From NCBI GenBank assembly GCA_024695625.1, contig JAILHV010000111.1, positions 1-45,358 of the forward strand: a stretch of 45,358 nucleotides of DNA, written 5' to 3'. A program made the translations under genes and the position numbers. The DNA comes from Treponema sp. (GTDB lineage: Bacteria; Spirochaetota; Spirochaetia; Treponematales; Treponemataceae). The first letter of the stretch is position 1. Each line of letters opens with the position of its first letter. Under the pieces are notes generated by a model. That model ran no database searches. It was not told where the DNA came from and saw only the letters and a list, made by a program, of their open reading frames with translations. Positions 6,972 through 12,474 of the stretch are shown here, piece after piece.

Positions 6972-7868
6972 CTATTCCTCTATCTTGTGATTCTGAATGT
7001 AGTCAAAGAGCTTGTTCATCTGCAGGAGGAAGGAAAGCCTGTCGTTCATCATGATGGAGGCATCCGTTTCGCGGCGGACAATTTCGTTTACCTGCATGAT
7101 GTTGGAATGTTCAACTTCCTTAGAAGAGCGCATGATGTTTTCCTGGTTGGCCTTGATGTCCTGGTACATGGACTCGGTGGCATCTGCATTGTGCATGGAG
7201 TCGGTTTTAATTTCTTCAAGGGAAGAACTGGAATCTTTCGTAAGGCTTCTTATCTGGTTAAGGAATTCATCGTACTGGGCATTGCTCCTTACAACGGTCG
7301 CAACCCTTCTGTTGAGTTCCTCGATATGCTGGCCAATGTCAAGCGACGTGGAGCGCGTCTGTTCGGAAAGCTTCTTAACCTCGTTTGCAATGATGCGGAA
7401 TCCTGCACCGGCACTACCTGCATGGGCTGCTTCTATAGAGGCGTTAAAGGAAAGCAGGTTTGTCTGGTCAGAAATATTCTGGATGTTCTCTACAAAGCCG
7501 CGGATTTTTTTGATGAATTCTTCAAGCTCGTTCATCTCGCGGTCCATCTCGTGGCGCTTTTTCTGAATCTCGTCCATCTTTCTGTTGAGTTCTTCCAGCT
7601 GCGAATAGATGCCGTCTATTTTTACAGAACTCTTCTGAATGGATTCAAGGATTTCCTGAGTGGTGTCCCTTATCCTAAGGCTTGTATCAGAAAAATCCTG
7701 CAAAGCTTCCGACTGCTTTTTGTATATGCCGTCTTCAGAAGTAAGGTTGTCCAGATAACTGCGCAAAAATGAATTTCCGTCATTCTCGCGGCTAGCCATG
7801 TCCATAAGAATTTTTGTTATGTCAAAGCCTGCCTGAACAAGCGTCTGTTTGCTGTATGTCTGTTCCAT
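6972..7868 (-). CDS. Soluble methyl-accepting chemotaxis-type signal transducer
   Basis: 298 residues with no membrane segment and no recognisable sensor domain. The protein is almost entirely coiled coil. The highly conserved MCP hairpin tip that binds CheA/CheW is clear near residues 134-175 ('DQTNLLSFNASIEAAHAGSAG', then GFRIIANEVKKLSEQTR). It is therefore a cytoplasmic transducer, short for the family. AAGGAAG lies 6 bases before ATG. It sits 23 bases after the FIST-domain gene on the same strand, so FIST probably supplies the sensory input in trans. It likely signals to the flagellar CheA/CheY pathway. Identity is sure; the ligand is unknown. Confidence 0.88.
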   Translation of the reverse strand: MEQTYSKQTLVQAGFDITKILMDMASRENDGNSFLRSYLDNLTSEDGIYKKQSEALQDFSDTSLRIRDTTQEILESIQKSSVKIDGIYSQLEELNRKMDEIQKKRHEMDREMNELEEFIKKIRGFVENIQNISDQTNLLSFNASIEAAHAGSAGAGFRIIANEVKKLSEQTRSTSLDIGQHIEELNRRVATVVRSNAQYDEFLNQIRSLTKDSSSSLEEIKTDSMHNADATESMYQDIKANQENIMRSSKEVEHSNIMQVNEIVRRETDASIMMNDRLSFLLQMNKLFDYIQNHKIEE

Positions 7869-7891
7869 GATTCACTTCCTTATTAATGCCC

Positions 7892-9031
7892 TTACGCTTC
7901 TATTACGATTGCAAGCAGTGTCTGGTTAAAGTTAAGGCGGTCCATCTGCTCACCGTAGCTGGAAAATCCGCAGAATACCGGGAAATATTTTTTCCACACC
8001 GCTGCAACCTGTGTGGTCAAATGCTTCTGCTCAAAGCCTATTGTGCGGAGGATGCAGTTTACAAGCAGAACGCAGCCCGGCCTGAAAATTTCTTTTGCAA
8101 AAGAAGCGCAAGTTTCGTCGGCAATTTTAATCGGGTCAAGCGGATTCATAAGTTCAACTTCGGAATTGGGAAGAACACGGCAGTACATACCGATTGAACC
8201 GTCCGGATTGAAATTTGCTATGGAAGAAATAAATACGTCTTCTCCGTAAGCACGCCCCATTGGATGCTGCAAAGCCGCATTCTGTGCCTCTGCTTCCGTT
8301 ATGCCCAAAGTCTTTGCATACATCTTTCTTGGACTTTGACCGTTGATTGTTTTTATTGTACGAGACTCTATGTCCACATCGGAAAGGCGCATCCTCTTTC
8401 CGGAAGGGGCAAAAATATTTTCCCTCTTTATGATAAAGCGCTTCTTGGTCTTAAAGAAAAGGACCGCAGCCCCTCGCGAAACAACATCGCCGTTGTAGCT
8501 TACGTAAGTCTGTTTGAATTCAAGGTCATCGCCTGCGGAACCGCCTGCAATTATAAAGTCTTTGTCTCCGATGACAGCATTCAAAAGCGCCATTGTGGAT
8601 TCTTCCGCATTGCAAAGGCCGTTTATAAAGGTTAGCGCAAAGGCATCATGGTTTGCACCGTTCTGGCCAAGAGTGATTCCTACCTTTTTTGCAGCCTCTG
8701 CAATCTTTGATTTATTTACGATTGGAAATTTGTCCGTGTCGTCAAAGATTACGCCGGAAACCATTGTAACATTGTCTGTGAGGGTTGTAACGACAAGTGA
8801 TTTTTTTGAAAAGCCCTCTGAGCTTATTTCGCCAGACGTGCTTGTTCCAAGAACCTGGCTCTTTGGAAAATGTTCGCGAATGCGTTTTGCAAGTTCAGGA
8901 AAATTGTAGCAGGCACTTGCAAAAAAAATAACTGCCGTGCATAAATCCGGGCTTCTCTTAAGCTGTCCAAAAACATCTTTTAGGGCCAAATCCATATCCT
9001 GGTTGGACGAAAAAGCAACTTCTTGAACCAT
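7892..9031 (-). CDS. FIST signal transduction sensor protein
   Basis: A 379-residue protein with FIST N (about residues 25-200) and FIST C (about 215-360) domains. In FIST N, 'AVIFFASACYNFPELAKRIREHFP' and 'LGTSTSGEISSEGF' are characteristic; in FIST C, 'HPMGRAYGEDVFISSIANFNPDGSI'. FIST domains are proposed small-molecule (perhaps amino acid) sensors and are often fused to MCP, kinase or GGDEF outputs. Here the output is the adjacent soluble MCP. An ATG at 9043 exists, but 9031 is preferred: GGAGG lies 5 bases upstream of it and overlaps the upstream ATG codon. A sigma-28-like promoter lies about 75 bases upstream. Confidence 0.88.
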   Translation of the reverse strand: MVQEVAFSSNQDMDLALKDVFGQLKRSPDLCTAVIFFASACYNFPELAKRIREHFPKSQVLGTSTSGEISSEGFSKKSLVVTTLTDNVTMVSGVIFDDTDKFPIVNKSKIAEAAKKVGITLGQNGANHDAFALTFINGLCNAEESTMALLNAVIGDKDFIIAGGSAGDDLEFKQTYVSYNGDVVSRGAAVLFFKTKKRFIIKRENIFAPSGKRMRLSDVDIESRTIKTINGQSPRKMYAKTLGITEAEAQNAALQHPMGRAYGEDVFISSIANFNPDGSIGMYCRVLPNSEVELMNPLDPIKIADETCASFAKEIFRPGCVLLVNCILRTIGFEQKHLTTQVAAVWKKYFPVFCGFSSYGEQMDRLNFNQTLLAIVIEA

Positions 9032-9105
9032 AACGACCTCCATAAAACTTTGCTGACTTACATAAGGAACAAAGAAGGGTATTTTTATTTTGCTAATGAC
9101 TTTTA

Positions 9106-9132: not shown

Positions 9133-9193
9133 ATCAGACATTAAAGATGGGAGGAAATGGCGTATTTCTGAATCTAATCCTCAGAAAAACAGA

Positions 9194-9387
9194 GCCTAGC
9201 CCCGATTGGAAGGGGCCGAAGGCGACCGGCACGAAGTGACGGGCCGCGCACCGCAAGGTGGGCAAGCCCTGGAAAGCGGGTAACGAATGGCCGCCTTGTC
9301 ATTTGTTACCCCCAAGTTTCTTTTATCAGATAACGCGCCACGCTGAAAAGCTACGCTGCGTGAACACATGGCGCGCTAATGACAAGG
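9194..9387 (-). repeat. Dispersed structured repeat, copy 1
   Basis: On the minus strand the left arm is CCCGCTTTCCAGGG (9267-9280) and the right arm CCCTTCCAATCGGGGC (9200-9215). CCCG/CGGG and AGGG/CCCT pair and leave the loop CTTTCC against TCCAAT. A hairpin follows at 9279-9310 (GGTAACGAATG with CATTTGTTACC) whose loop centre is CCGCCTTG. CCTTGTCATT (9294-9303) can instead pair with AATGACAAGG (9378-9387), enclosing CGCGCCA/TGGCGCG. It fills most of the 398-base spacer, which holds no gene. Confidence 0.75.
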
Positions 9388-9429: not shown

Positions 9430-10371
9430 TTATCCTGCAATATTCAGTCTTCCAGCATCGTGAGCAATGTTCTGTGCTGCATAGCTGTAGACAATCTTTG
9501 CCACATCGTAAATTGGCTTCTTTGCGTTCAGGCCCATGCTGCGTGCAAAGTCTGAAGAAGCCTTTGTGGCCTTTGGATTCCAGAGGGTTGCGCTCTCAAG
9601 GTTGATAAAGTCAGCCTGTTCGGATGAAGCAATTCCTTCAATGTGCCTGTTCATCTCTGCAACAAGGGCATCCTTCCTCGGGTTGTCAAGGGAGACAAGG
9701 GCAAGGCTGCACTTCTTGTTTACCATCTTGATTGTGGAAAGCAGGGAAAGGTAGAGGTTGTCAAACTCAGTCGGGTTTGTGGCAAAGAGATCTTTGTCTT
9801 CTTCGCCCAAGTGAAGGATGATGCCTTCCACATTGATAGATGCGACGTACTTCTTGAAGTATTCCTTTGCGTTCTTGAGGGAGAGGGCAAATGTACTTGT
9901 GTTAACAAGGTCTGTTTCAAGTTCAAATTCATCGTTGATTTTTGCCGCAGGGATTTCCTTGTCGTATGTGCCGCCAAGAAGAACCATGCTGCTGACGGAC
10001 GGCTCCTTCTTTTCGTCTGCAAGAATAATCTGCTCTTCGTGAGCATAGACTACCTTGTTTGCTTTTGTTGTATTGTTTGAACCCATAAAGACCTCCTCGC
10101 GCTTTTTGTCCAGCGCACAGTTCCTAAAATATACCAAGACGTTTGTCAAAACGATTACAAGATTCAAAAAGTAAACTGCAAGAACGTAGTTGTACTGGTG
10201 GTTGTTAAGCTTGGCGCAGATTCCTGCAACGTAGCCTGTTATGATAAGAAGGATGAATGCAAGGCTGGTGCTCTTTGCAGTGCGTGCCCTGTATGCCTTT
10301 ACCACATTGATTGGCCAAGAAAAGCCAAAGCAAACCAACATTCCAGATTCCAAAAGATTAGCTAAGTTCAT
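9430..10371 (-). CDS. SemiSWEET/PQ-loop-like membrane domain fused to an SGNH-like domain
   Basis: A 313-residue protein. Residues 1-92 have three membrane helices with the small-transporter pattern ('WPINVVKAYRARTAKSTSL', then 'GYVAGICAKLNNHQYNYVL'), resembling SemiSWEET/PQ-loop or PnuC-like proteins. Residues from about 125 resemble an SGNH/GDSL fold, with a block-I-like 'MVLLGGTYD' and 'IILHLGEEDKDLF' where GxND would be expected. The Ser and Asn are not obvious, so it may not be an esterase. ATG 10371 is chosen over longer frames because GAGG lies 7 bases upstream. A second strong site (GAGGAGG, 5 bases before an in-frame ATG at 10086) could make the C-terminal domain alone. The function of the fusion is unknown. 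Confidence 0.65.
   Translation of the reverse strand: MNLANLLESGMLVCFGFSWPINVVKAYRARTAKSTSLAFILLIITGYVAGICAKLNNHQYNYVLAVYFLNLVIVLTNVLVYFRNCALDKKREEVFMGSNNTTKANKVVYAHEEQIILADEKKEPSVSSMVLLGGTYDKEIPAAKINDEFELETDLVNTSTFALSLKNAKEYFKKYVASINVEGIILHLGEEDKDLFATNPTEFDNLYLSLLSTIKMVNKKCSLALVSLDNPRKDALVAEMNRHIEGIASSEQADFINLESATLWNPKATKASSDFARSMGLNAKKPIYDVAKIVYSYAAQNIAHDAGRLNIAG
10086..10101 (-). promoter_or_regulatory. Internal ribosome binding site inside the fusion gene
   Basis: GCGAGGAGGTCTTTATG on the minus strand places a near-perfect Shine-Dalgarno sequence 5 bases before an in-frame ATG. The start is at the domain boundary (product MGSNNTTKANK...), so a separate soluble SGNH-like protein of about 218 residues could be made. 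Confidence 0.55.
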
Positions 10372-10539
10372 ATAAAAACCTCTATTCATAAATGTTTTTT
10401 TTATGCCGCTCTTTGCAAGTGACAATTGCATGATAGCCGAACTGGAAAATTCATTCAATTTTTTTGAAAGTTAAAAAATGAAAAAAAAAGCCAATATTTT
10501 TTTTACTTTCTAAAGTCCCCCAAAAAATTTTCTTTATGC

Positions 10540-10551: not shown

Positions 10552-11790
10552 ATGGAAAACAAAGGAAACCTTAACCTTCTTAGAAAGGAAATAACTTCTA
10601 CACAGGTTGCGCTGATTATCCTCGTAACCATTTTCTTAAGCGCGGGCGGAATGCTCATAAACATCAATTCCAACAACAAGTCCTTTGACCAGAACTTGCA
10701 GAACACATCCGCACTCATAACACGGCTTTACAACTTTACAAAAAACATGACACAGACGGAACTCTGCGTCTACATGGACAGCGTTGTTTCTTCCCTTTCC
10801 GACGTAGACATTTTTTCTATCGTAGACAAAAACAACACAAGGATTTACCACACCCACCACCAGCTTATAAACACCCAATACGACGGAGACCACCCGGACT
10901 TTTCCATAAAACGTTCCGACTACCTTACGGAAGACAGCACAGGCCCGTCAGGTCCGCAAAGGCGCACCTACTCTGCCGTATATGACGAAGACGGGAAATA
11001 CCAGGGCTTTATAATGACAATCCAGCTAAAGACTTCCATACGGTCGGTAACAATAAGGACAATACTGCTCTTTCTTGTGGTAACGATTGTTGCAATATTG
11101 ATAGAGCTTGCTGTTTGCGCAACCATTTCAAAAAAGATAAAAAAAGAATTCCTGCGCTTTACTGAAGACTTCGAGGGAACAAAATTTCTGGTTGATTCAA
11201 TGCGCGCAAACAACCACGACTTTACAAACAAGCTGCACGTAATACTTGGACTAATACAAATTGGCGAATACGAAAAGGCCCAGAACTACATACAGAACAT
11301 TTCCATCATTCAGAGGGAAACGGTAACATTCGTAATGCACAACATAGAAAACTCTTCCCTTGCCGCCCTGCTCATCGGAAAAATCGCAAGGGCAAGCGAA
11401 TGCAACGTAAAATTCAGCCTAAAGGAAAATTCATCCTACAAGGAAGAGGACGTAGACATTCCGTCTGAGGCACTCGTAACAATCACTGGCAACCTGATTG
11501 ACAATGCGCTGGACGCAATGAACCGAAGCCCGAAGGACTGCAAGGAACTTTCAGTAGGAGTCTTTACAAAACCCGGCGACCTGCTTTTAATCGTTCAGGA
11601 TTCGGGCCCTGGCATTCCACAGGACATAAGGGAAGCAATTTTTGAAAAAGGATTTTCCACCAAGGGAAGTGGACGCGGACTTGGCCTCTACCACACCAAG
11701 CAGCTGATACAGAGCCTTGGCGGGGAAATATTTGTTGAATCCCAGACTGGAAAAGGATGCTGCTTTACGGTAAAATTATACAGGCACTAA
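10552..11790 (+). CDS. Sensor histidine kinase, CitA/DcuS type
   Basis: A 412-residue membrane kinase. Helix 1 is about residues 17-38, an extracytoplasmic sensor about 40-165, helix 2 about 168-190. The phospho-acceptor is His222 in 'RANNHDFTNKLHVILGLIQ', the variant H-box of the CitA/DcuS/SpoOB-like group. The ATPase domain shows the N box 'NLIDNALDAM', G1 'DSGPGIP' and G2 'GSGRGLGLYHTKQLI'. It pairs with the response regulator 15 bases downstream. Members usually sense citrate or C4-dicarboxylates, but no such transporter is nearby, so the ligand is open. No ribosome binding site is visible before ATG; a -10-like box 6 bases away suggests leaderless translation. Confidence 0.9.
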   Translation: MENKGNLNLLRKEITSTQVALIILVTIFLSAGGMLININSNNKSFDQNLQNTSALITRLYNFTKNMTQTELCVYMDSVVSSLSDVDIFSIVDKNNTRIYHTHHQLINTQYDGDHPDFSIKRSDYLTEDSTGPSGPQRRTYSAVYDEDGKYQGFIMTIQLKTSIRSVTIRTILLFLVVTIVAILIELAVCATISKKIKKEFLRFTEDFEGTKFLVDSMRANNHDFTNKLHVILGLIQIGEYEKAQNYIQNISIIQRETVTFVMHNIENSSLAALLIGKIARASECNVKFSLKENSSYKEEDVDIPSEALVTITGNLIDNALDAMNRSPKDCKELSVGVFTKPGDLLLIVQDSGPGIPQDIREAIFEKGFSTKGSGRGLGLYHTKQLIQSLGGEIFVESQTGKGCCFTVKLYRH

Positions 11791-11805: not shown

Positions 11806-12474
11806 ATGTACAAAGTTTTAATTGTAGAAGACGACCCCATGGTTGCAATGATAAACAGCCACTACGTTGAGCAGAACAAAGACTTTTCCGTTTTATCGAT
11901 ATGCAAGAACGGGCAGGAGGCATTGGAATTCCTTCAGAAAGAAGATGCAGACCTGATTGTACTGGATGTATTCATGCCGTTAATGGACGGAGTTGAAACC
12001 CTAAAGCAGATAAGGCAAAAAAAGATACAGGCAGAAGTTGTAATGGTAACGGCCGCAAACGACACCGCAACGCTGGAAGAGACAATGAACCTGGGCGTAC
12101 TTGACTACCTAATAAAGCCATTTACACTGGAGCGTTTCCAGATTTCGCTTGAAAAATTCATTGAGCGGACCACGACCCTAAAGCAGAACACAACGCTGGA
12201 CCAAAGCTGCATAGACAGTCTCTTTTCAAAATCCGTAAAATGCCACAGGGAAGACCTGCCCAAGGGAATCCAAAAGCACACTCTGGACTCGCTGATGCAA
12301 TACTTTAACGAAAACCCGGGCTGGCAGGCAGTGGACGCAATAGCAGAAAAACTTGGAATCTCCATCGTAACCGTGCGGCATTACGTAAGCTACATGGTCA
12401 AGGAAAAAATCATCCGCGAAGAAATAAATTACAAGACAGGCGGAAGACCTTCCATGGTCTACAAAAAAAACTGA
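11806..12474 (+). CDS. Response regulator, CitB/DcuR type
   Basis: A 222-residue cytoplasmic regulator. The receiver domain (1-120) has the acidic pair Asp9/Asp10, phospho-acceptor Asp54 in 'LIVLDVFMPLMDG', Thr82 and Lys104 in 'YLIKPF'. The C-terminal domain has a winged-helix segment near residues 175-220 ('AIAEKLGISIVTVRHYVSYM', ending 'TGGRPSMVYKK'), as in DcuR and CitB. It is the partner of the kinase 15 bases upstream. Targets are not evident: the next gene downstream converges on it from the other strand, and no symmetric site was found near either promoter. Confidence 0.9.
   Translation: MYKVLIVEDDPMVAMINSHYVEQNKDFSVLSICKNGQEALEFLQKEDADLIVLDVFMPLMDGVETLKQIRQKKIQAEVVMVTAANDTATLEETMNLGVLDYLIKPFTLERFQISLEKFIERTTTLKQNTTLDQSCIDSLFSKSVKCHREDLPKGIQKHTLDSLMQYFNENPGWQAVDAIAEKLGISIVTVRHYVSYMVKEKIIREEINYKTGGRPSMVYKKN

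Follow-up and report, generated by a model that had tools for sequence, protein, structure and literature searches.

Fusion of two proteins combined with an internal translation start is already known from the SctQ/Spa33/HrcQ family of type III secretion, where the fusion matches two proteins that are otherwise separate, FliM and FliN (PMC4832279, PMC8553256). In Spa33/SctQ, the internal start supplies a free C-terminal partner that binds the fusion (PMC4832279). The results presented here concern a gene in a contig of 45,358 nucleotides from Treponema sp. (the window), in which a SemiSWEET-fold domain is joined to an SGNH-fold domain. Like SctQ, the Treponema fusions have a conserved inner Shine-Dalgarno (SD) sequence with an in-frame start at the domain border, and unfused homologues of both halves exist. 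Unlike SctQ, to which they are unrelated, the Treponema fusions have a membrane-transporter half, and their split and fused forms occur within one bacterial family.

The fused gene is an open frame of 313 codons plus stop on the minus strand at 9430–10371, with its ATG at 10369–10371 and its stop at 9430–9432; the plus strand of this interval is closed by stops. An earlier note on this DNA, made from the letters alone, had placed the gene at the same coordinates. Residues 1–92 (10096–10371) form a three-helix SemiSWEET-fold domain of the PQ-loop clan, followed by a linker of residues 93–125 (9997–10095), of which residues 95–125 are disordered in the structure model (pLDDT <50), and by an SGNH-fold domain of residues 126–306 (9454–9996). 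The first start is preceded by the SD sequence GAGGT (10378–10382), a 5 nt match that is weaker than the inner one. The inner SD sequence, GAGGAGG at 10092–10098, ends 5 nt before an in-frame ATG at codon 96 (10084–10086), exactly as the note had read it at the domain border. Initiation there is predicted to give a 218-aa soluble product ending at 9430. RNA folding near both starts revealed nothing notable (z −0.8 and 0.6), and the window contains no Rfam families or tRNAs. Copies of the gene that are 98% identical are present in other Treponema genomes.

The window protein as a single query matched nothing in Pfam, NCBIfam or PDB, and profiles of its homologues were used instead of single-sequence searches for domain assignment. 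In the alignment of the SemiSWEET half, 27 of 44 members match Pfam PQ-loop (best 1.1e-6), as do a few of 19 fused members, and the profile matches the E. coli SemiSWEET structure 4x5m (E 1.4e-4). The whole-protein model is poor over this half (pLDDT about 55–77), which was therefore modelled alone (residues 1–98, pLDDT 84). The top 11 Foldseek rows for this model are all SemiSWEETs, with 4rng at TM 0.74/0.85 and rmsd 1.8. Both the three-TM SemiSWEET fold and profile membership in the PQ-loop clan were thus found, which bears out the SemiSWEET-like domain proposed in the earlier note. The family shares with SemiSWEETs (4x5m, 4rng) the three-helix fold, the TM1 proline and a positively charged loop between TM1 and TM2. 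It differs in being fused to an SGNH domain and in lacking the Pro-Gln motif of TM1; Pro20 is invariant, but the Gln is replaced, so that WP is followed by Ile, Leu or Met. In a weak profile alignment, which has a gap nearby, the sugar-pocket residues Trp50 and Asn66 of EcSemiSWEET are matched with Gly50 and Tyr67. Gly50 and Tyr67 are invariant or nearly so in the family, and Asn70 is invariant. The apparently altered sugar-pocket residues, together with the carboxylate-type regulator described below, argue against assuming a sugar substrate, and the sugar transport implied by the name SemiSWEET is unsupported. In EcSemiSWEET, it is on the intracellular side that TM3 protrudes (PMC4309421), and the charge distribution of the window protein agrees with EcSemiSWEET topology. 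By analogy with known SemiSWEETs, the C-terminus of the SemiSWEET half would be cytoplasmic.

The second half has the α/β/α fold of SGNH hydrolases, but not their catalytic residues. With an E limit of 10, 14 of 19 fused members match Pfam Lipase_GDSL_2, the best at 2.5e-5; among the split homologues, one scores above the Pfam cut-off. The core of the SGNH-half model has a pLDDT of about 76–92, Foldseek matches it to GDSL esterases, and VIA Z scores against SGNH hydrolases are 11–13, in agreement with the SGNH-like domain of the earlier note. The degenerate catalytic residues that the note suspected are confirmed by counts over the 72 non-redundant fusions (70–71 scored per column). The nucleophile column holds Thr in 22, Ser in 20, Ala in 9, Gly in 7 and Asn in 5 fusions, with Met, Asp, Lys, Val or Cys in the others. 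All 71 scored fusions have Ser at the block II Gly position and Lys or Arg at the block V His position, and the block III Asn (GxND) is variable and kept in about 26. The catalytic Ser, the oxyanion Gly and Asn, and the Asp-His set are therefore not conserved in the fusions, unlike in SGNH/GDSL hydrolases (6njc, TesA 1u8u, AlAXEase 7ddy), with which the C-terminal half shares its fold.

The closest solved relatives by profile are carbohydrate O-acetylesterases, namely sialate O-acetylesterases (E 2.4e-6; 6njc/7pzg), CE2 enzymes (2wao) and the acetylxylan esterase 7ddy. This relationship, and the Ser kept in 20 of the 70 fusions scored and the Asn of GxND in 26 or so, would fit a working esterase that processes an imported substrate, such as a carbohydrate O-deacetylase. 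Such a role is unlikely, given the ten different residues in the nucleophile column and the uniform replacement of the block II Gly and the block V His. The SGNH-like domain probably lacks esterase activity and would more likely serve to bind a ligand or a partner of the transporter. A few split homologues retain GEND or a His, and the ancestor of the SGNH half may for this reason have been an enzyme. One split homologue, in a Clostridia locus (L024:5404-5964), also matches Pfam OSK, a degenerate SGNH family, at 9.2e-5, below the curated cut-off.

Fused genes are found in many Treponemataceae genomes, and other Treponemataceae (L084–L093) have two adjacent unfused genes. The database search proposed in the earlier note therefore finds the fusion to be widespread in this family, with unfused neighbours. 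In 247 sampled genomes of the phylum, only those of Treponemataceae give strong matches to the SGNH profile. In some Clostridia (L022, L023, L025, L042) homologous SemiSWEET and SGNH genes lie side by side with the SGNH gene downstream. The order is swapped in two others (L024:5404-6306 and L036:5421-6291), where the SGNH gene is upstream. Adjacency in Clostridia in both orders supports a functional link between the two genes. These genes differ from the window gene in being unfused, but the ribosome-binding site (RBS) before the split SGNH gene is of the same kind as the inner RBS of the fusions. In unfused L085, this RBS read in frame gives QEEYM. The inner RBS of the fusions encodes the end of the linker, which reads KEENM or QEENM in most relatives and EEVFM in the window. 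The resemblance of QEEYM to QEENM indicates that the linker end is a translated RBS.

Mapped on the tree, the split/fused label changes three times (bootstrap range 3–3), and the fused genes fall into three groups: a large clade that contains the window, a second clade of L094 and its relatives, and L105 by itself. The tree as such gives no direction of change; the split state of the Clostridia and the outgroup suggests that the fused state is derived. In Treponema berlinense ATCC BAA-909 (L020:6001-6620, the L083 gene), the SemiSWEET half is intact and the SGNH half is frameshifted and shortened. Metagenome-assembled genomes are the majority of the records, and an assembly or annotation artefact could in principle create a fused frame. 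The 84 fused genes (72 non-redundant) come from many assemblies, including few-contig genomes (one of 4 and one of 30 contigs), and each is a single continuous frame, which leaves practically no room for an artefact.

The inner start of the window gene is widespread in the family. The non-redundant set of 72 fusions was merged from 49 first-batch and 35 second-batch genes; the second batch was fetched after the rule was set, and 2 of its 35 genes repeat first-batch genes (L156 that of L012, L157 that of L096). An SD match of at least 5 nt precedes a junction ATG in 55 of the 72 fusions, and one of at least 6 nt in 49. Counted over in-frame ATGs, a match of at least 6 nt is found at 52 of 98 junction sites, compared with none of 413 in the rest of these genes and 8 of 1591 internal ATGs in the neighbouring genes from which background rates were taken. 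The SD sequence that the earlier note saw at the domain border is thus far beyond chance. In the first batch, the counts are 31 of 72 at the junction and 0 of 269 elsewhere. Resampling of synonymous codons gave a mean of 3.5 and a maximum of 9 genes in 1000 rounds, compared with 29 of 49 observed. Counts are partly dependent through shared ancestry, which thinning by identity reduces but does not remove; the excess persists after thinning to 41, 17 and 8 sequences, with 25/41 observed vs 3.4 resampled (maximum 10) at <75% identity and 10/17 vs 1.0 (maximum 5) at <65%. In the second batch, 29 of 35 genes have a junction SD and none of 214 ATGs elsewhere has one.

The bases themselves point the same way. 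The Glu codon within the SD sequence is GAG in 40/40 cases, against 145/954 (15%) elsewhere, and GGAGG occurs at 5.0 per kb at the junction vs 0.23 elsewhere, a 20-fold difference. Of 52 genes with GGAGG at the junction, 51 continue with an in-frame ATG at a distance of 3–11 nt, and 45 of 54 counted sites have 5 nt between GGAGG and ATG. The SD excess, the GAG bias, the pairing of GGAGG with ATG and the repeat in the second batch lead us to conclude that the inner start is almost certainly under selection across the family. In the second fused clade, the SD sequence has a different codon phase and reads as the Arg codons AGG AGG, with 9 nt spacing. Together with the GGAGG and GAG bias, this indicates that the nucleotide sequence at the junction is itself kept, beyond the protein sequence.

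Slowing of ribosomes by SD-like motifs within genes has been proposed, an idea that has been called controversial (PMC5100845), and the position at the domain border would suit a pause that helps the first domain to fold or to enter the membrane. A pause needs no start codon, and the nearly invariable ATG, mostly 5 nt from GGAGG, makes this explanation very improbable. It could also be supposed that the SD sequence and ATG are a functionless relic of the former downstream gene and that only the fusion matters as a product. The site is gone from most of the subclade of the window, and also from L105, L117, L131, L138, L139 and L102, with no sign of gene decay, as a relic would allow. However, a relic is expected to erode at synonymous sites, whereas sequences as little as about 50% identical still share the SD bases, spacing and ATG in spite of codon preference, and we regard a relic as quite unlikely. 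The preferred explanation is an inner start that is used, such that the membrane fusion and a soluble, free protein are probably both made. The earlier note had suggested two such products from one gene, and the conserved inner SD sequence and ATG support it.

The subclade of the window sets a limit to this conclusion. The inner RBS is absent in 11 of its 14 rows and kept only in the window, L004 and L005, so that support for the site of the window comes from three non-redundant species and near copies only. The two products are not obligatory, because most species of this subclade lost the inner site. A second, unfused copy was not found in the subclade genomes without the inner RBS (one match each), and the free form seems to be dispensable in these members. 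The site of the window has the same codon phase and spacing as those of the main clade, and tree parsimony prefers loss followed by regain over retention. The earlier note would have given up the inner start if homologues lacked it; the outcome is mixed but on balance favours the note, as the start is present in the family at large, with an SD match of at least 5 nt in 55/72 fusions, and lacking in 11/14 rows of the subclade.

A divergent sensor histidine kinase with a DcuS/MalK/DpiB-like kinase part (10552–11790, plus strand) and its partner, a DcuR/DpiA-like response regulator (11806–12474, plus strand), are adjacent to the fused gene. The two are found beside the gene in most treponeme loci (the kinase in 45 of the clustered loci), and the regulator is conserved too. 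Several Clostridia and some other treponemes have a divergent LysR gene instead of the two-component pair. The DcuS/DcuR-like pair probably controls expression of the fused gene, possibly in response to a carboxylate. The inverted repeats in the gap between the fused gene and the kinase gene are unspecific and AT-rich, and were set aside. Just downstream of the fused gene is an intergenic repeat (9187–9320) with 43 matches in the same genome, including itself, mostly 70–90% identical and without an Rfam match. A FIST-domain gene and a methyl-accepting chemotaxis gene are next on the minus strand (6972–9043).

What sequence comparison establishes is the two domains, the existence of fused and split genes, and selection across the family on the inner RBS and ATG. 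Under the model proposed here, a gene for a SemiSWEET-fold membrane protein and a neighbouring gene for an SGNH-fold cytoplasmic protein became one open frame, and the RBS of the downstream gene was retained inside it, now coding for the linker end. Initiation at the first start would yield the membrane-bound fusion, and initiation at the inner site the free SGNH-like protein, with expression controlled by the divergent DcuS/DcuR-like pair. The tethered and free copies would share the cytoplasm and could assemble together, like the full-length and short forms of Spa33/SctQ. We infer such assembly, as well as the membrane topology and the non-catalytic role of the SGNH-like partner. We consider this account as a whole likely.

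As far as could be found, the SemiSWEET-SGNH architecture is unreported. A literature search of limited reach found no mention of SemiSWEET together with SGNH, and a term search of two SemiSWEET surveys found no such fusion; the combination had been unfamiliar to the earlier note as well. More generally, we lean slightly towards a scheme in which genes fuse by read-through of the gap between them while the RBS of the downstream gene is selected in frame, which would add a tethered form and keep the free one. Fusion of this type would have taken place in two or more Treponema clades, in different codon phases, and a lineage may later turn to the fusion only. The pair of a SemiSWEET-fold protein and an inactive SGNH protein would then represent a novel type of transporter, whose soluble binding partner is both tethered and free.

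These results suggest that gene callers that give one protein at the fused gene miss a second one. The series within one family of a split pair, a fusion with an inner start and a fusion without it allows direct tests of how genes fuse step by step and of whether a free partner is needed. The locus represents an unstudied putative transporter module, common in gut and rumen Treponema, that consists of a three-helix membrane protein, an inactive-looking SGNH domain and a dicarboxylate-type regulator.
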